DNA of 64,000 nt from the NCBI GenBank assembly GCA_947489705.1, contig CANLEQ010000001.1, forward strand, positions 186,001-250,000, given 5' to 3'. A model generated the notes under the pieces. That model did not search any database and had not been told where the DNA came from. It was given only the letters and a program-made list of their open reading frames with translations. The stretch is from an uncultured Paracoccaceae bacterium (GTDB lineage Bacteria > Pseudomonadota > Alphaproteobacteria > Rhodobacterales > Rhodobacteraceae). The position numbers and the translations under genes are program-made. The number at the start of each line of letters is the position of its first letter. Position 1 is the first letter of the stretch. This document shows positions 6,548 through 45,216 of this stretch, in pieces.

Positions 6548-8151
6548 ACCACTGGATCGTCGCCCCCGTCCTCCTGCCCGCGATGCTGGCGGCCATCATC
6601 GTGCTGGCCGCACGGTTCCATAACGGCCTCGCGCGGGTCATGTCGGTCGCGGGAACGGTGGCCCTTCTGGCCATCACGCTCGGCCTGTTCCTGGGCGCCT
6701 CCGACGGATCGATCGGCGTCTACCTGCTCGGCGACTGGGCGGCCCCGTTCGGCATCGTCCTCGTGACGGACCGGCTCTCCACGCTGATGACGCTTCTGAC
6801 GGCCATCCTGGCGGTCCCGGTTCTCCTCTATGCGATCGGATCGAACTGGGATCGCCGCGGGCGGCACTTCCACGCCCTCTTCCAGTTCCAGCTCATGGGC
6901 ATCATGGGCGCGTTCCTGACCGGAGACATCTTCAACCTCTTCGTGTTCTTCGAGATCCTGCTGATCGCCAGCTACGGCCTGATGATCCATGCCGGCGGAG
7001 GGGCGCGCCTGCGGGCCGGGACGCAATACGTGCTCTACAACCTGCTCGGATCGACGCTCTTCCTCTTCGCGCTCGGCACGCTCTATGCCGAGACGGGAAC
7101 GCTCAACATGGCGGATCTCGCCGGCCGCGTGGCGGCGATCGATGCGGGCGCATCGTCAGGCATCCGCGTGGCCGCGGTGCTGCTGTTGCTGGTCTTCGCG
7201 GTGAAGGCAGCGATCCTGCCGCTGCATTTCTGGCTCCCGGCGAGCTATTCCGAGGCGCCGGCGCCCGTCGCGGCGCTCTTCGCCATCATGACCAAGGTCG
7301 GGGCCTACGGGATCATCCGGATCTACACGCTGGTCTTCCCGCCCGACCTCGCCTCGACCCAGGGGCTGTTCGATACGTGGCTCCTGCCGGCGGCGCTGCT
7401 GTCGGTGGCGGTGGGCATGATCGGGGTTCTGGGATCGGAGCGGCTGGACCGCCTCGTGGCGTTTTCCGTCGTGGGCTCGATGGGCATGCTGATGATCGCG
7501 CTGTCGGTCTTCACCGCGCAGGGAATATCGGCCGCGCTCTATTACGCGATCCACTCGACGCTCGCCACCGCGGCACTGTTCCTGCTGGTGGATCTGGTGC
7601 GCGACCGCCGCGGCGATGTCGGCACGGATCTCGAGGACGCGACGCCGATCGCGGGCAGCCCGCTGGTCGCGGGGATGTTCTTCGCCGCGGCGATCGCCAT
7701 GTGCGGCCTGCCCCCGCTCTCGGGGTTCGTGGGCAAGCTGCTGGTCCTCGAGGCCGCCCGCGCCTCCGATCTCGTGGTGCTGGCCTGGGCCGTGGTCCTT
7801 TCGACGTCGCTCGTCGCGATCGTCGGGTTCAGCCGTGCGGGCTCGCAGGTCTTCTGGAAGGCCCACGAGGTCGCCGCCCGTCGGGCCGACGATCTCGAAA
7901 CCGAGGCGGACGAGGCGAATGTCGAGGACAGCACGCCGAATCCCGCCCCCCTTCCGGTCGTCTCCGTCGGCTTCCTCCTCGCTTTGATCGTCGCCGCGAC
8001 GGTCTTTGCCGGGCCGCTGACCGAGATGATGGACGCCACCTCGGCGCAGCTTTTCGCGCCAGAGGCCTATATCTCGACCGTTCTCGAGGCGAACGGCAAG
8101 GTGATCGAGTATGATGGCGGCCACGGCACGGAAGAAGGAGAAGCGCATTGA
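6544..8151 (+). CDS. mrpD: Mrp antiporter subunit D
   Basis: A 535-residue polytopic subunit homologous to NuoM/NuoN and MnhD. FNLFVFFEILLIASYGL at about 135 and LPLHFWLPASYSEAPAP at about 220 carry the conserved Glu and Lys/His of the proton path in antiporter-like subunits. A hydrophilic acidic insertion at ~440-465 precedes the last helices and a long charged C-terminus. With MrpA it forms the presumed ion-translocating pair. It overlaps mrpC by four bases and mrpE by one. Confidence 0.95.
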   Translation: MNHWIVAPVLLPAMLAAIIVLAARFHNGLARVMSVAGTVALLAITLGLFLGASDGSIGVYLLGDWAAPFGIVLVTDRLSTLMTLLTAILAVPVLLYAIGSNWDRRGRHFHALFQFQLMGIMGAFLTGDIFNLFVFFEILLIASYGLMIHAGGGARLRAGTQYVLYNLLGSTLFLFALGTLYAETGTLNMADLAGRVAAIDAGASSGIRVAAVLLLLVFAVKAAILPLHFWLPASYSEAPAPVAALFAIMTKVGAYGIIRIYTLVFPPDLASTQGLFDTWLLPAALLSVAVGMIGVLGSERLDRLVAFSVVGSMGMLMIALSVFTAQGISAALYYAIHSTLATAALFLLVDLVRDRRGDVGTDLEDATPIAGSPLVAGMFFAAAIAMCGLPPLSGFVGKLLVLEAARASDLVVLAWAVVLSTSLVAIVGFSRAGSQVFWKAHEVAARRADDLETEADEANVEDSTPNPAPLPVVSVGFLLALIVAATVFAGPLTEMMDATSAQLFAPEAYISTVLEANGKVIEYDGGHGTEEGEAH

Positions 8152-8639
8152 TGTCCCGGATCCTTCCGCATCCCTTCCTCACGCTGCTGCTGATCGTGGT
8201 GTGGTGCCTGCTGATCAATTCGCTGAGCCTCGGCACCGTCGTCTTCGGGACGATCGCGGGGCTCCTGATTCCGATCGCCACCGCGGCCTACTGGCCCCAT
8301 GCGCCCCGGATCGTGCGGCCCTTCCGGCTCGTCTTCTATTTCTTCGTGGTCGTGTGGGAGATCCTGAAGGCCAACATGACCGTCGCGATGATCGTGCTCT
8401 TCAAGCCCAACCGTGAGATGAAGTCGAGCTGGGTGACCGTGCCTCTGGATCTCAAGACGCCCGAGGCGATCACCGTGCTCGCCGGCACGATCACCCTGAC
8501 CCCCGGCACCGTCAGCGCCGATCTGAGCGACGACGGCTATTCGCTGCTCGTTCACGCACTCGATGCGCCGCATCCCGACGAGGTGCGTGACGAGATCAAG
8601 ACCCGGTTCGAACGCAGATTGAAGGACATTTTCGAATGA
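8151..8639 (+). CDS. mrpE: Mrp antiporter subunit E
   Basis: A 162-residue protein with two N-terminal membrane helices and a soluble C-terminal domain, as in MnhE. FLVVWEILKAN-like text (FFVVVWEILKANMTVA) and VPLDLKTPEAITVLAGTITLTPGT are family hallmarks. The ATG at 8151 overlaps the mrpD stop by one base; an in-frame TTG three bases earlier is a less likely start. The subunit stabilises the complex and is needed for full antiport in studied homologues. Confidence 0.93.
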   Translation: MSRILPHPFLTLLLIVVWCLLINSLSLGTVVFGTIAGLLIPIATAAYWPHAPRIVRPFRLVFYFFVVVWEILKANMTVAMIVLFKPNREMKSSWVTVPLDLKTPEAITVLAGTITLTPGTVSADLSDDGYSLLVHALDAPHPDEVRDEIKTRFERRLKDIFE

Positions 8640-8905
8640 TCGACATCGCGATCCACATAACTTTCGTCGCCGTGGGCATTTCCCAGCTTCTCGCCATGGT
8701 CCGCTTGCTGCGGGGCCCGCATGTCGGCGACAGGATCCTCGCGCTCGACACGATGGTGATCAACGCCATCGCGCTCATCGTTCTGCTGGGCATGTACTGG
8801 GGCACCGAAATCTATTTCGAAAGCGCCATGATCTTCGCGATGCTGGGCTTCGTCTCGACCGTCGCGCTGGCCCGTTTCGTGCTCAGGGGGGACATCATCG
8901 AATGA
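8636..8905 (+). CDS. mrpF: Mrp antiporter subunit F
   Basis: An 89-residue membrane protein with three helices. VRLLRGPHVGDRILALDT is the conserved MnhF/PhaF motif. It overlaps both neighbours by four bases (ATGA), so translation of E, F and G is likely coupled. Some homologues also transport bile acids, but the operon context makes antiporter function the straightforward reading. Confidence 0.94.
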   Translation: MIDIAIHITFVAVGISQLLAMVRLLRGPHVGDRILALDTMVINAIALIVLLGMYWGTEIYFESAMIFAMLGFVSTVALARFVLRGDIIE

Positions 8906-9261
8906 TCGTCGACCTTCTCATCGCGGCGTGGCTGATCATCGGGGCGTTCTTCCTGGTCGTCGGGTCGGTGGGCCTGCTGAAGCTCGATTCGCCGATGAAA
9001 CGGCTGCACGCCCCCACCAAGGCATCGACGCTCGGGGTGGGCGCGCTGCTTCTGGCCTCGATGATCAACGCGTTCGCCTATCACGACGGATCGCTGCACG
9101 AAGTGCTGATCATGGCGTTCCTGTTCGTCACGGCGCCGATCTCCGCGCATCTCATCGCCAAGGTGAACATCCACCACGAGGCCACCGATCAGCCGCTCCC
9201 GACGCCGCCCAACGACGATGTCTGGGCGACGCAGGACAGGCCGGCCGACCGCTCGCTCTAG
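8902..9261 (+). CDS. mrpG: Mrp antiporter subunit G
   Basis: The last subunit, 119 residues, three membrane helices followed by a hydrophilic tail. LLKLDSPMKRLHAPTKASTLGVG is typical of MnhG/PhaG. It completes a full A(B)-C-D-E-F-G set, so the antiporter should be functional for alkali-cation homeostasis in a saline habitat. The next gene (phnE) converges with only five bases between stop codons, where CTAGCG-C-CGCTAG forms a small palindrome; no obvious terminator is present. Confidence 0.94.
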   Translation: MIVDLLIAAWLIIGAFFLVVGSVGLLKLDSPMKRLHAPTKASTLGVGALLLASMINAFAYHDGSLHEVLIMAFLFVTAPISAHLIAKVNIHHEATDQPLPTPPNDDVWATQDRPADRSL

Positions 9262-9266
9262 CGCCG

Positions 9267-10079
9267 CTAGATGAGCGCCTGCCTGACCTTTGCGGAGACC
9301 CATTCGCTGACGATCACGGTGCCGAGGATCAGCAGAAGGATAACCGTGACCTGCGACCAGGCGAGGGTGTTCATTGAGGCCTGCAGTTTCAGGCCGATCC
9401 CGCCCGCCCCCACGAGCCCGAGGATCGTGCTTTCGCGGATGTTGATGTCCCACCGGAAGACCGAGATCCCCCAGAAGGCCGGCAGGATCTGCGGCACGAT
9501 CCCGTAGCTGAGGGTCTGCGCGCCGCTCGCGCCGGTGGCCTCGATGGCCTCGATCTGGCGGCGGTCGGTCTCCTCGATCGCCTCGTAGAGCAGCTTGCCG
9601 ACGAACCCGATGGAGCGCAGCGCGATCGCGACGATCCCCGCCAGGAGCCCCGGCCCGATGATCGCGACGAGCAGAAGCGCCCAGATCAGCGAGTTGATCG
9701 AGCGCGACGCCACGATGATGAACAGCGCGACGGGACGAAGGATGGCGGGCGACGGCGACGTGTTGCGCGCGGCCGCGAAGGCCACCGGAACCGCCATGAT
9801 CACGCCGCCGATCGTGCCGAGCGTCGCGATGTTGATCGTGTCCCAGAGCGGCCCCATCAGTTCCGGAAGATAGCTCAGCCGCGGCGGGAACATCCGCGAT
9901 CCGATATCGGCCGCCTGCCGCGGCGCGTCCCAGACAAAGGCCCAGATCGTGCCTGCCGTCATCACCTGCCAGCACCAGACGAAGAGCGCGACGAGTGCCG
10001 CCCAGAACGCCCAGAGCATCAGGCGCGTCTTCGGCGTGCGGTGCGTCCAGACCTGGCTGTAATGGTCGATCTCGCTCAT
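9267..10079 (-). CDS. phnE: Phosphonate/phosphite-type ABC permease (second PhnE)
   Basis: A 270-residue inner-membrane permease with about six helices. The EAA loop is EETDRRQIEAIEATGASGAQ, the site that docks the ATPase, and GLVGAGGIGLKLQ near the end is common to PhnE proteins. It is the last gene of the phnD-phnC-phnE-phnE operon and overlaps the first phnE by four bases, so the two probably form a heterodimer. The start is ATG 10079. Confidence 0.92.
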   Translation of the reverse strand: MSEIDHYSQVWTHRTPKTRLMLWAFWAALVALFVWCWQVMTAGTIWAFVWDAPRQAADIGSRMFPPRLSYLPELMGPLWDTINIATLGTIGGVIMAVPVAFAAARNTSPSPAILRPVALFIIVASRSINSLIWALLLVAIIGPGLLAGIVAIALRSIGFVGKLLYEAIEETDRRQIEAIEATGASGAQTLSYGIVPQILPAFWGISVFRWDINIRESTILGLVGAGGIGLKLQASMNTLAWSQVTVILLLILGTVIVSEWVSAKVRQALI

Positions 10080-10879
10080 TGCAGGAACTTCCTGAGATAG
10101 CTCGAGCCGTATTCGGCGATCATCACGACCCCGATGATGATCAGCAGGATCGCCCCCGCGCTGTCGTATTCGTAGCGGTCGATGGCGGTGTTGAGCGTCG
10201 CGCCGATCCCGCCCGCGCCGACGATGCCGATCACCGCGCTCTCGCGAAAGTTGATGTCGAGCCGGTAGAGCGACAGGCCGATCAGGCGCGGCATGACCTG
10301 CGGCTGGACCGCGTAGTTGACGAGCTGCCCCCAGGAGGCGCCGGTCGCGCGCACCGCCTCGGCCTGGCGGGCGTCGATCTCCTCGATATCGTCGGCGAGC
10401 AGCTTGCCCAGGAACCCGATCGTGGCGAAGGCGAGCGTCAGGAACCCGGCAAAGGGGCCGAACCCGAACATCGCGACCAGAAAGATGGCGATGATGATCT
10501 CCTGCAACGACCTGCTGACCGCGATGATCGACCGGCAGACGTAATAGACCGGTCGCGGCGCGAGATTGCGCGCGGCACCGATGCCCAGAGGCACCGAAAG
10601 CGCGACGCCGAGGACGGTCGATGTGAGCGTCATCGTCAGGCTTTCGATCAGGCCCCGCAGGATGTCGTCCCAGCGGCTGACGAAATCGGGCTGCAGGAAC
10701 CCCATGACGAATCGCTGGCCGCGCTCCATGCCCGTCGCGACCCGGGCCCAGTCGACCTCGAGCGTTCCGATGGCGAGAACGAGGTAGATCGCGATCCCCA
10801 CCTGCAAGCCGATCCGGACCCGCCGGTCGGTCAGGATCTGCGGCGGACGGCGCCATGTCGACGGATAGCTGCCCTCCAT
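10076..10879 (-). CDS. phnE: Phosphonate/phosphite-type ABC permease (first PhnE)
   Basis: A 267-residue permease paralogous to the downstream gene. The EAA loop EEIDARQAEAVRATGASWGQ and the closing GIVGAGGIGATLN segment are visible. The N-terminal ~90 residues include a longer periplasmic region before the core domain, as in many PhnE proteins. The ATG at 10879 overlaps the phnC stop codon, indicating translational coupling. Confidence 0.92.
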   Translation of the reverse strand: MEGSYPSTWRRPPQILTDRRVRIGLQVGIAIYLVLAIGTLEVDWARVATGMERGQRFVMGFLQPDFVSRWDDILRGLIESLTMTLTSTVLGVALSVPLGIGAARNLAPRPVYYVCRSIIAVSRSLQEIIIAIFLVAMFGFGPFAGFLTLAFATIGFLGKLLADDIEEIDARQAEAVRATGASWGQLVNYAVQPQVMPRLIGLSLYRLDINFRESAVIGIVGAGGIGATLNTAIDRYEYDSAGAILLIIIGVVMIAEYGSSYLRKFLQ

Positions 10880-41878: not shown

Positions 41879-43201
41879 ATGATATTCATGCCCTCGACCA
41901 AGACGATCTGCATCGTCGGCAACGATCCGTTCAACGACGATTTCATCAAGCGCATTCCCGATGCGGAAAACTGGAACATCGTGACGGTGCTCGAGAACCG
42001 CGAGGTTCAGCCCGACGACGAAAGCATCGACTTCGACGCCCTCTACGACCGGGCCCGCGAGCAGATCGCGGCGCTCGATCCCGGTCCCGACGCGATCATC
42101 GGGCATCTCGACTTTCCGGTGACCTCGCTCGTCGCCCTGCTGAACCGCGAATTCGGTCTGCGCGGCGCCTCGCCCGAGGCCGTCGCGCGGTGCGAGCACA
42201 AGTACTGGATGCGCGAGGAACAGCGAAAGGTCTTTCCCGACACCACGCCGAAAGTCACGGCGATCAACCCGTTCGACCCCGATGCGGCGCTCGCGGCCGC
42301 GCCCGGCTTTCCGTTCTGGCTGAAGCCCGTGAAGGGCCATTCCTCTAAGCTCGGGTTCCTCGTGCGCGAGGAAAGCGATTTCCACAAGGCGCTGCACGAA
42401 TGCCGGCTCTTCATTCACCAGCACGGCGCGCCCTTCAACCGCTTCCTCGCGCGGCTCGACACCTCGAGCGGCTGCCCCAAGGATGTGGACGGCAACTTCG
42501 CCGTCGCCGAGGAACTGATCAGCGCGGATCGGCTCTTCACCATCGAGGGATTCGTGCGGGACGGCGAGACCCGGGTGGTGGGCGTGGTCGAATCGCTGAA
42601 GGGCGGCCGGGAATCGGTTAGCTTCTCGCGCTATCAATATCCCGGCGAGATCCCCGAAAAGACGGTCGAGGCGGCCCGCGCCACGGTGGCAAAGCTGCTT
42701 TCGGCATTCGAGTTCGATAACGGGCCCTTCAACGTGGAATTCTTCTGGGACGAGGAGACCGACGATCTGCGCCTGCTAGAGATCAATCCGCGGCTCTCGA
42801 AATCGCACACTCCGCTCTTTCACATCGTCGACGGGGCGAGCCATCACCGGCAGGCGATCCAGCTCGCGCTCGGCGAAGAGCCCGCGCTGCCCGATGGCGC
42901 CGGCCACAGCCAGATGGCCGCCAAGTTCATGATCCGCAGCCAGGAAGAGGACGGCATCGTCAAGGGCGTCCCCTCTGCCGATCAGATCGACGAGCTGAAG
43001 AAGTTGGTGCCCGATTTCGAGACGCAGATCCTCGTCGAAGAGGGCCAGCGCCTCTCGGCTCTCGCCGATCAGGACAGCTATTCCTACGAACTGGCGGATC
43101 TCTTTATCGGCGGATCGAGCCTCGAGATGATCGAGGACACCTATCTGCGGTGCCGCCATTCGCTCGATTTCCTGATCAAACCGATCCCGGAGGACCTGTG
43201 A
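41879..43201 (+). CDS. ATP-grasp domain protein (carboxylate-amine ligase-like)
   Basis: A 440-residue ATP-grasp enzyme. The N-terminal part reads TICIVGNDPFNDDF; FPFWLKPVKGHSSKLGFLV gives the ATP-binding Lys-containing strand, and FNVEFFWDEETDDLRLLEINPRLS the Mg-binding Glu and Asn. Such enzymes join a carboxylate to an amine or thiol through an acyl phosphate. No carboxylase or biotin domain is present. The stop overlaps the start of the CocE/NonD hydrolase gene (TGATG). The ATG at 41879 lacks a strong ribosome-binding site; ATG 41888 is an alternative. Product unknown. Confidence 0.85.
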   Translation: MIFMPSTKTICIVGNDPFNDDFIKRIPDAENWNIVTVLENREVQPDDESIDFDALYDRAREQIAALDPGPDAIIGHLDFPVTSLVALLNREFGLRGASPEAVARCEHKYWMREEQRKVFPDTTPKVTAINPFDPDAALAAAPGFPFWLKPVKGHSSKLGFLVREESDFHKALHECRLFIHQHGAPFNRFLARLDTSSGCPKDVDGNFAVAEELISADRLFTIEGFVRDGETRVVGVVESLKGGRESVSFSRYQYPGEIPEKTVEAARATVAKLLSAFEFDNGPFNVEFFWDEETDDLRLLEINPRLSKSHTPLFHIVDGASHHRQAIQLALGEEPALPDGAGHSQMAAKFMIRSQEEDGIVKGVPSADQIDELKKLVPDFETQILVEEGQRLSALADQDSYSYELADLFIGGSSLEMIEDTYLRCRHSLDFLIKPIPEDL

Positions 43202-45216
43202 TGGAGATCGTCGATACCTTTCCGCACGAGATCATCGTCGAGGAGCACGTGCGCATCCCCGTGACTGACGGGCTGCACCTTTCGGCCAAGATCTGGCGCC
43301 CGAAGGACGGCAAGCCGGTGCCGGCGATCCTGGAATACATCCCCTATCGCAAGCGGTTCGGCACCAAGGTCCGCGATGCGCATACTCATCCGTTCCTCGC
43401 CGGCCACGGCTATGCCTGCGTGCGGCTCGACATCCGCGGCTCGGGCGAGAGCGAGGGCGTGCTGCTCGACGAATACCTGCAAAGCGAGCTCGACGACGGC
43501 GTGGCCGCCATCGAGTGGATCGCCGCGCAGGATTGGTGCGACGGCAATCTCGGCATGATGGGCATTTCCTGGGGCGGCTTCAACGGGTTGCAGATCGCGG
43601 CGTTGCAGCCCGAGGCGCTCAAGGCCATCGTCACGGTCAGTTCGACGGACGACCGCTATTCCGACGACATCCACCACATGGGCGGCACCCTTCTGGGCGA
43701 CAACCTGTCGTGGTCGGGGGTGATGTTCGCCTACAATGCCCTGCCGCCCGACCCGGCGCTGGTCGGCGATCGCTGGCGCGAGATGTGGCTGGAGCGGCTC
43801 GACCACGCGCGGCCCTGGATCGCAGACTGGCTCACCCATCAGCGGCGCGACGCCTATTGGCGGCACGGATCCATCTGCGAGGATTACGACGCGGTGAAGA
43901 TCCCCGTCTTCGCGGTCAGCGGCTGGACCGACGGCTATACCAACAGCGTGTTCCGCCTGATGGAGCATCTGAAGGGCCCGCGGAAGGGCCTGATCGGCCC
44001 CTGGGGCCACATCTATCCGCATTTTGGACGGCCCGGCCCCGCGATCGACTTTTTGGGCGAGATGCTGCGCTGGTGGGACCGCTGGCTCAAGGGGATCGAG
44101 ACCGGCGTCGAGGACGATCCGATGATCTGCGCCTGGATGCAGGAGAGCGTGGCCCCGAACACGGAATACGACGAACGCCCCGGCCGCTGGGTGGCCGAGC
44201 CCGTCTGGCCCTCGTCCCGGACCCGGGCGCATGAGCTGGTGCTCGGCCCGGGGCGCGATCTGGTCGAGCCCGGCGAGAATATCGCCCGTCGCGACATCGA
44301 CGTGCAATCCCCGGTGACATCCGGCCTCGCCTCGGGCAAGTGGTGCTCCTACGCCAACGCGCCCGATCTCGCCGGCGATCAGCGGATCGACGACGGCGGG
44401 GGCCTCGTCTTCCAGACCGAGCCGCTGGAGGAGGATCTTGAGCTTCTGGGCGCGCCGGAGGTCGAGCTCACGCTCTCGTCCGACCGTCCCGATGCGATTG
44501 TCGCGGTGCGGCTGTCGGACATGCGGCCCGATCACCAGGTCACGCGGCTGAGCTACGGGCTCCTGAACCTCACCCATCGCGACAGCCGCCAGCATCCCGA
44601 GAAGCTCGAGCCCGGCAAGAGCTATACCGTGCGCGTGCCGATGAACTACATCGCCGAACGCGTGCCGGCGGGGCATCGTTTGCGGCTGACCGTCTCGACC
44701 GTCTACTGGCCGCTCGCCTGGACGCCGCCCGAGCCCGTCAAGCTCACCATCAAGACGGGCGAGAGCCGCCTGATCCTGCCGCATCGCCCCGTCCCCCGGG
44801 ACGACCGCGCGCCGCAATTCGGCCCGCCGCGGCGCGCCCCGAGTCCGCCGTTGAGTTCGCTCGCCGCACCGGACCACCGCTGGCTGGTCAAGCACGACCT
44901 CGGCGCGCAGGTCTCCGAGCTCGAGGTGATCGACGATCGCGGCATCGTGCGGCACGACGATATCGGGCTGACCGTGGGCGCGCGGGCCGTGGAACGCTAC
45001 ACCGCGTCGCCCGGCGATTTCGCCTCGGCCGCGGGCGAGAGCGAATGGACCTACACCCTGTCGCGCGACGACTGGTCGATCCATGTCCGCACCCGGACCC
45101 GGTTGACCGCGGACCGCGAGACCTTCCACGTCTATGCCGAGCTCGACGCCTACGAGGGCGAGAAGAGGATCCGCTCGGAAACCTGGACGGAAACCATCCC
45201 GCGCGACCACGTCTGA
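43201..45216 (+). CDS. CocE/NonD family hydrolase (S15 peptidase-like)
   Basis: A 671-residue serine hydrolase of the X-Pro dipeptidyl-peptidase/cocaine-esterase type. The alpha/beta-hydrolase domain includes VRLDIRGSGESEG, the nucleophile elbow GISWGGFNG (Ser123), then VSGWTDGYTNSV (acid) and GPWGHIYPH (His). The C-terminal jelly-roll domain (about 350-580) is of X-Pro/CocE type. No signal peptide, so cytoplasmic. GGAGG precedes the ATG, which overlaps the ATP-grasp stop. It would cleave an ester or an acyl/peptide bond, perhaps in the product of its partner. Confidence 0.9.
   Translation: MEIVDTFPHEIIVEEHVRIPVTDGLHLSAKIWRPKDGKPVPAILEYIPYRKRFGTKVRDAHTHPFLAGHGYACVRLDIRGSGESEGVLLDEYLQSELDDGVAAIEWIAAQDWCDGNLGMMGISWGGFNGLQIAALQPEALKAIVTVSSTDDRYSDDIHHMGGTLLGDNLSWSGVMFAYNALPPDPALVGDRWREMWLERLDHARPWIADWLTHQRRDAYWRHGSICEDYDAVKIPVFAVSGWTDGYTNSVFRLMEHLKGPRKGLIGPWGHIYPHFGRPGPAIDFLGEMLRWWDRWLKGIETGVEDDPMICAWMQESVAPNTEYDERPGRWVAEPVWPSSRTRAHELVLGPGRDLVEPGENIARRDIDVQSPVTSGLASGKWCSYANAPDLAGDQRIDDGGGLVFQTEPLEEDLELLGAPEVELTLSSDRPDAIVAVRLSDMRPDHQVTRLSYGLLNLTHRDSRQHPEKLEPGKSYTVRVPMNYIAERVPAGHRLRLTVSTVYWPLAWTPPEPVKLTIKTGESRLILPHRPVPRDDRAPQFGPPRRAPSPPLSSLAAPDHRWLVKHDLGAQVSELEVIDDRGIVRHDDIGLTVGARAVERYTASPGDFASAAGESEWTYTLSRDDWSIHVRTRTRLTADRETFHVYAELDAYEGEKRIRSETWTETIPRDHV

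Follow-up and report, generated by a model that had tools for sequence, protein, structure and literature searches.

A conserved, overlapping gene pair for an ATP-grasp ligase and a CocE/NonD-family hydrolase, with a paralogous pair in cyanophycin gene clusters

We analysed two overlapping genes, one for a ligase of the ATP-grasp type and the other for a serine hydrolase of the CocE/NonD family, in a 64,000-nucleotide stretch of DNA (the window) from an uncultured Paracoccaceae bacterium (GenBank assembly GCA_947489705.1, contig CANLEQ010000001.1, positions 186,001 to 250,000). The ligase open reading frame (ORF) extends from an ATG to a TGA and specifies 440 amino acids; its homologues fit a second ATG (MPSTKTICIVGND) three codons downstream, which is therefore preferred and is probably the true start. 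The hydrolase, of 671 amino acids, was read from its ATG instead of the GTG at 43150 that a mechanical ORF list gives. A reading of this region made from the letters alone (the sequence-only reading) had proposed that the two proteins are made together, pointing to a TGATG overlap of stop and start codons and to a ribosome-binding site inside the ligase gene. Both features are present in the sequence (Table 1), and they support translational coupling of the two genes. The same reading had found no signal peptide on either protein, and inspection of both N-termini by eye, no predictor having been run, showed none.

Table 1. Positions of the window gene pair and of EctC-ligase fusions (a locus number before a position means that it refers to that locus)
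Feature	Position	Strand	Basis
Putative ATP-grasp carboxylate-amine ligase (L-amino-acid-ligase-like fold), type I	41879..43201; likely start 41888	+	PF13535, homologue alignment, model
CocE/NonD family serine hydrolase, Peptidase_S15 + PepX_C + all-beta C-terminal region	43201..45216	+	Pfam, NCBIfam, model
TGATG stop/start overlap, one base common to both genes	43199..43203	+	direct sequence reading
GGAGG ribosome-binding site of the hydrolase, within the ligase gene, 7 bases 5' of the hydrolase ATG	43189..43193	+	direct sequence reading
EctC-ligase fusions	L071:9596-11278, L094:9596-11275, L106:9596-11275, L111:3691-5364		Pfam
Further EctC-ligase fusions	L112, L121, L163:6077-7747		similarity or by eye

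The ligase is a member of the ATP-grasp superfamily: it matches the Pfam family ATP-grasp_4 (PF13535) with 37.3 bits (cut-off 27), its catalytic residues are invariant, and the fold model agrees. It reached no NCBIfam family cut-off (best match 38.7 bits against 625 required) and a phmmer search against the PDB gave no match at E ≤ 0.01, so it does not align best with a known enzyme of an unrelated pathway, a finding that would have told against the sequence-only reading. Residues E287, E301, N303 and R305 are identical in 73 of 73 loci (one row per locus, in a 75-row alignment of the window ligase with 74 of 75 listed ligases, L066 being omitted), and their spacing is nearly that of what we take to be the metal-binding and catalytic residues of BacD. 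Structural prediction, which the sequence-only reading had named as a check, gave models with a pLDDT of 94.8 for the ligase and 91.7 for the hydrolase. By VIA, the best match of the ligase model was the L-amino acid ligase BL00235 (Z 30.2 over 385 residues), followed by BacD/YwfE (Z 28.1); these are whole-length fold matches with the ATP-grasp active-site residues kept, although the window ligase is only about 16-17% identical to either enzyme. To our knowledge, neither BL00235 nor BacD/YwfE has a hydrolase partner of the CocE/NonD family. No single known enzyme was a clear winner by VIA or Foldseek. Assignment of the ligase as a biotin carboxylase was considered and rejected, the urea carboxylase and biotin carboxylase models scoring 17-18 bits, far under the NCBIfam cut-off.

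The hydrolase passes the NCBIfam CocE_NonD model (TIGR00976) with 234.5 bits against a cut-off of 66.3, scores 229.4 bits for Peptidase_S15 and 154.1 bits for PepX_C in Pfam, and falls below the cut-offs of the NCBIfam Xaa-Pro dipeptidyl-peptidase models (104.2, 36.5 and 31 bits against 642, 711 and 881). The intact Ser-Asp-His triad described earlier was borne out: S123, D244 and H270, together with Y49, are identical in all 62 aligned hydrolases (the window protein and 61 of 63 listed ones, L057 and L117 being omitted), where the triad and the oxyanion tyrosine Y49 are taken to be such by analogy with cocaine esterase. The best structural match of the model is also cocaine esterase, from which the window protein differs in an extra all-beta C-terminal region (about residues 550-671), an invariant acidic motif after the nucleophile strand, and its coupling to a ligase. 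Residues D150, D151, D155, D156 and H158 are likewise invariant in the 62 rows and could bind a cationic group. The families and the conserved catalytic residues thus support the ligase-plus-hydrolase chemistry first proposed. We conclude that the ligase would most likely form an amide between small amino-acid-like substrates and that the hydrolase would most likely cleave an amide in the same chemical space.

A genome-neighbourhood survey, also among the checks named by the sequence-only reading, found that the pairing recurs. A ten-ligase profile run against named genomes (E ≤ 1e-3) revealed relatives encoded in at least 585 stretches of one genome collection, and the family is spread over several phyla. 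Among the best 80 loci, which were examined, a hydrolase lies within the fetched flank of the ligase in 69. With 10 further loci (90 in all), both genes were called in 68, and in 67 of these the CocE gene is directly downstream on the same strand; the sole exception, L073, has it some 3.6 kb away on the opposite strand. The gap is at most 60 bases in 61 of the 67 adjacent pairs and a 4-base overlap occurs in 24, the start codons, and hence the gaps, deriving from our own gene caller, which missed the ligase in five loci (L010, L019, L047, L061 and L098). Genes of unannotated loci were called by script and are named by similarity search or by eye wherever no family score is given. A less biased test used 398 sampled Pseudomonadota genomes and the 75-row ligase profile, counting a match above 500 bits as strong. 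Ten genomes, the window's included, carry a strong ligase, at 12 loci (two of them the window genome's own), and CocE is adjacent in 12 of 12; an eleventh match is weak (163 bits) and has no adjacent CocE. Adjacency is thus found in many genomes rather than in this one only, and chance adjacency was rejected given the same order in 67 of 68 loci and at all strong Pseudomonadota loci.

Few of the 67 adjacent pairs have an operonic neighbour closer than 60 bases (8 upstream, 3 downstream), and the surroundings, by eye, vary even within the window's genus; the pair is therefore a unit of its own. No third gene is conserved, the widest other family, a TRAP permease by eye, being found in 10 of the 90 loci. 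Pairwise distances of ligases and hydrolases correlate (r = 0.91, 59 loci), shared descent not being separated out in this figure. An M20 peptidase adjoins the hydrolase in five loci (L071, L106, L112, L163 and L165), and those of L163 and L165, the two scanned with NCBIfam, pass the ArgE/DapE deacylase cut-off.

The sequence-only reading had stated that no biosynthetic cluster surrounds the pair. This holds for the window copy: Pfam names a hybrid histidine kinase among its neighbours, along with a GMC oxidoreductase that lies upstream on the opposite strand and, downstream, a lactate permease and an amine oxidase, and there is no cphA or cphB within 5 kb. It does not hold for a paralogous pair of the same genome, which adjoins cyanophycin genes. 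At E ≤ 1e-10 the genome has two ligases and two hydrolases of this kind, and no more; the second pair (L010, type II) lies about 76 kb from the first, beyond the window, and is 35% (ligase) and 50% (hydrolase) identical to it. Its gene order is cphB, cphA, ligase, hydrolase, with CphA scoring 1093.9 bits (cut-off 850) and CphB 222.7 bits (cut-off 126.6); this cphA is about 74 kb from the window pair. An isoaspartyl-peptidase-like gene stands alongside (319 bits, under its model's cut-off of 567). The type II pair adjoins cphB-cphA in 11 genomes, with CphA above the cut-off in each: the window's genome, G006, G012, G002, G003, G038, G319 and G343 (Psychromarinibacter and Tranquillimonas), two Salinisphaera and Nitrococcus. 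In all 11, the four genes were found by similarity within one stretch, including the cphB of L019, which the gene calls had missed; L053 (G312) and L017 (G006), which have an identical ligase and are probably one genome, were counted once. An IaaA- or IadA-like gene is present in 9 of the 11 stretches (it is absent from L022 and L023), and in the Salinisphaera and Nitrococcus clusters cphA and the ligase are separated by the IadA-like gene. The tree places the window ligase in a 12-row clade (SH-aLRT 100) and eight cph-linked alphaproteobacterial rows in a separate clade (100) with Salinisphaera as sister (94); it kept two of five distant rows after a length filter, and L023_5, labelled 'other' in it, is cph-linked. 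Type I is present in 3 of 14 genomes of the window's genus. The paralogous pair thus belongs to clusters of the kind described as cphA1, cphB and iaaA/iadA (PMC10206079), while the window pair sits outside any such cluster. The L010 cluster (L010:5108-8289) also adjoins genes for ectoine/hydroxyectoine use (EutB, EutC and DoeA over cut-off), and by eye related neighbours are found at L020:10602-17863 and L022:10642-17915.

Taking these data together, we propose with moderate confidence that the pair is a self-contained module, an amide- or dipeptide-type ligase with an amidase or peptidase, acting on a small cytoplasmic nitrogen compound, and that a paralogue of it has been recruited to cyanophycin metabolism. 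The ATP-grasp protein would use ATP to activate a carboxylate for coupling to an amine, in the manner of L-amino acid (dipeptide) ligases; the CocE/NonD protein would be a cytoplasmic serine hydrolase that cuts an amide (or ester) bond in the same small molecule or in one closely related to it; and together the two may control how much of a nitrogen-containing amide or dipeptide is present. The divergent pair in the cyanophycin clusters would most likely act on Asp-, Arg- or beta-Asp-Arg-derived compounds. Several points weigh against this proposal. The fold that the model has in common with L-amino acid ligases does not establish a dipeptide product: by VIA, purine ATP-grasps (PurK, PurD-like and PurT entries, at Z 27-28) lie only about 2.5-3 Z units below the top match and biotin carboxylases about 5-6 units below it, a PurD-like entry heads the Foldseek ranking, and at the sequence level urea amidolyase and carbamoyl-phosphate synthase give the best profile matches. 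A coupled mRNA whose two enzymes made and hydrolysed one product would be a futile arrangement in the absence of regulation. In L019 (G006) and L134 (G343), ligase and hydrolase are separated by a short ORF on the opposite strand. Eleven of the 80 loci have no CocE in the fetched flank; among these, L065 and L094 end less than 200 bases from the ligase and L079 and L121 about 1 kb after it, and three of the eleven (L094, L111 and L121) carry a ligase fused to an ectoine synthase (EctC)-like domain. In favour of the pairing, eleven of 12 genomes without CocE adjacent to the ligase encode one elsewhere, the twelfth being a metagenome bin.

Ligases of about 560 amino acids, with EctC-like first 125 residues, occur in 6 of the 80 loci and form one clade (support 100; fused ligases entered the tree without their first 130 residues). 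In the four fusions tested, Pfam matched both Ectoine_synth (127.7-159.2 bits, cut-off 27) and ATP-grasp_4, and PF06339 also matches long frames in the genomes of L121 and Halospina. In L071, L106 and L112 the fusion is arranged tail to tail with a ligase-hydrolase-M20 peptidase gene row. Among five aligned fusions, L111 and L094 have a histidine in the second half of the EctC domain that L071, L106 and L163 lack. The Halospina denitrificans locus (L163:6077-17906) combines an EctC-ligase fusion with genes for three CocE hydrolases, one ArgE/DapE deacylase and one more ligase. Lone EctC-like proteins were seen near an amidase family gene in Tranquillimonas (L168:7998-9940, Pfam) and near an amidase gene in Salinisphaera (L169:8877-9278, by eye); the lone protein has 133 amino acids, and another EctC is encoded elsewhere in the genome.

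An osmolyte is a possible product of the pair. In saline habitats the ligase may make a compatible solute of the amide or dipeptide type, from which the hydrolase would recover nitrogen, by analogy with the N-acetylglutaminylglutamine amide (NAGGN) operon; we consider this unlikely, although the fusion to EctC and the ectoine-use genes beside the window genome's paralogous cluster point towards it. By name, the best 80 relatives are nearly all from what we take to be marine, hypersaline or soda-lake taxa, a list that is biased because the query lineages may all be saline. Ligase-bearing taxa include Thioalkalivibrio, Nitrosomonas marina and Nitrococcus, which we presume to be autotrophs and which would therefore indicate making, rather than only eating, a compound. 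Ectoine synthase (PF06339) is present above the cut-off in 8 of 10 ligase-bearing genomes against 51 of 388 other sampled Pseudomonadota genomes (Fisher p = 5.4e-6), but this test is uncorrected for phylogeny, with four of the ten genomes from one family and one being the window's own, and in another set (the genomes of 38 of the 80 loci and 8 others) the enzyme was found in just 23 of 46 ligase-bearing genomes. Nor is there an osmotic gene among the conserved neighbours of the pair. A bolder proposal, which we hold to be rather improbable, is that marine and halophilic bacteria use the module to make and recycle a new class of compatible solute (an amide or dipeptide) or a soluble nitrogen reserve, that the ring-closing EctC-like domain of the fusion in Salinisphaera, Nitrococcus and Halospina cyclises a ligated diamine amide within the one polypeptide to an ectoine-like amidine, and that some lineages draw on cyanophycin.

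Ordinary two-step catabolism or detoxification, in which the ligase would tag a carboxylate (or carboxylate an amine) and the hydrolase would open the next intermediate with nothing stored, is in our view distinctly unlikely. The weak similarity of the ligase to urea carboxylase is consistent with it, as are ligase-free hydrolases of 41-51% identity, which lie a few genes from ABC importers, mainly of the Opp type and frequently accompanied by catabolic genes (importers were nearby in each of the 8 plasmid records viewed out of 476 that had a match, and by eye in L013-L015). The pair itself, however, has no conserved transporter or catabolic neighbour, and the importer-linked hydrolases of L013-L015 differ from the paired ones in motif: DDR(Y/F)xDDxHxMGG in paired hydrolases, (V/T)DRxxDDIHxKGG in L013-L015, with V or T at the D150 position and K at the M160 position. 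Yet the hydrolase of L011, in a stretch with no ligase of the window family, keeps the paired form. Among the hydrolases without ligase (L028-L035 and L013-L015), importers of Opp or glycine-betaine type were seen, some of them near apparent betaine, carnitine or hydroxyproline catabolism genes. In L011, a 304-amino-acid gene (9197-10111) without a Pfam match overlaps the CocE hydrolase gene (7203-9200) by 4 bases; by eye it resembles a divergent ATP-grasp protein, and Pfam, PDB and profile comparison found no match for it.

It is quite improbable that the pair arose for, and generally serves, the metabolism of nitrogen derived from cyanophycin, with both pairs acting on beta-Asp-Arg or released Asp and Arg and the hydrolase serving as an isoaspartyl dipeptidase: the adjoining cphB-cphA genes in 11 genomes, and the co-occurrence of type II in all three type I genomes of the window's genus, are set against CphA above the cut-off in merely 7 of 46 ligase-bearing genomes searched (those of 46 of the 80 loci), two of which (Halomonas urmiana and Halospina) have no pair adjoining cphA, against cphA in the fetched flank of just 1 of the 80 loci, and against the IaaA- or IadA-like genes already held by 9 of the 11 clusters, which make a further isoaspartyl peptidase unneeded there. 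Cyanophycin is not the general partner of the pair. One sentence in PMC10206079 lists, among possible isoaspartyl dipeptidases encoded next to the cluster, a gene weakly similar to cocaine esterase that adjoins cphA1 in a single genome whose cluster comprises CphA1 and cyanophycinase, and it does not mention the ligase; the term ATP-grasp does not occur in the main text of that paper.

The sequence-only reading described correctly a genuine, conserved and uncharacterised enzyme pair, whose context is wider than one genome. Its remark that a make-and-cleave pair would be new overstates the general case, because operons of a peptide ligase with a peptidase are known, among them that of NAGGN. 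The NAGGN osmolyte operon comprises an ATP-grasp/GNAT ligase, an amidotransferase and an M42 peptidase. Like it, the window pair combines a ligase and a peptidase-type enzyme in one operon; the window hydrolase, however, is from a different family and the ligase has no TIGR03103 match at E ≤ 0.001. Background on ATP-grasp peptide ligases was drawn from PMC4431377 and PMC6920838. No paper on the ligase-hydrolase pair was found in the open-licence full-text literature, absence from which is weak evidence. For this family, usually paired with a hydrolase, we found no assigned function, and three handles on function are now available: coupled expression, the paralogue in cyanophycin clusters and the fusion to ectoine synthase. 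Finding out what the pair does could bring to light a new intracellular amide or peptide metabolite in saline bacteria, or supply a step missing from cyanophycin turnover.

A few minor observations were also made. PADLOC gave no match to a defence system, and a promoter and terminator scan gave nothing beyond chance level. A long frame at the ligase of L147, which at first looked like a fusion, proved to be no more than a GC-rich open frame. Twenty-five pattern matches on viral contigs included none encoding a relative, and seven plasmid records carry distant ligases (27-31% identity), with other neighbours in the four viewed. The distant ligases of L048:1070-3071 and L050:9765-12063, 37% and 34% identical to the type II ligase, adjoin by eye an MBL-fold, ETHE1-like hydrolase, with no CocE called nearby. 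In L087:9983-12658 and L089:246-2833, two tandem ligase genes lie 5' of the hydrolase.

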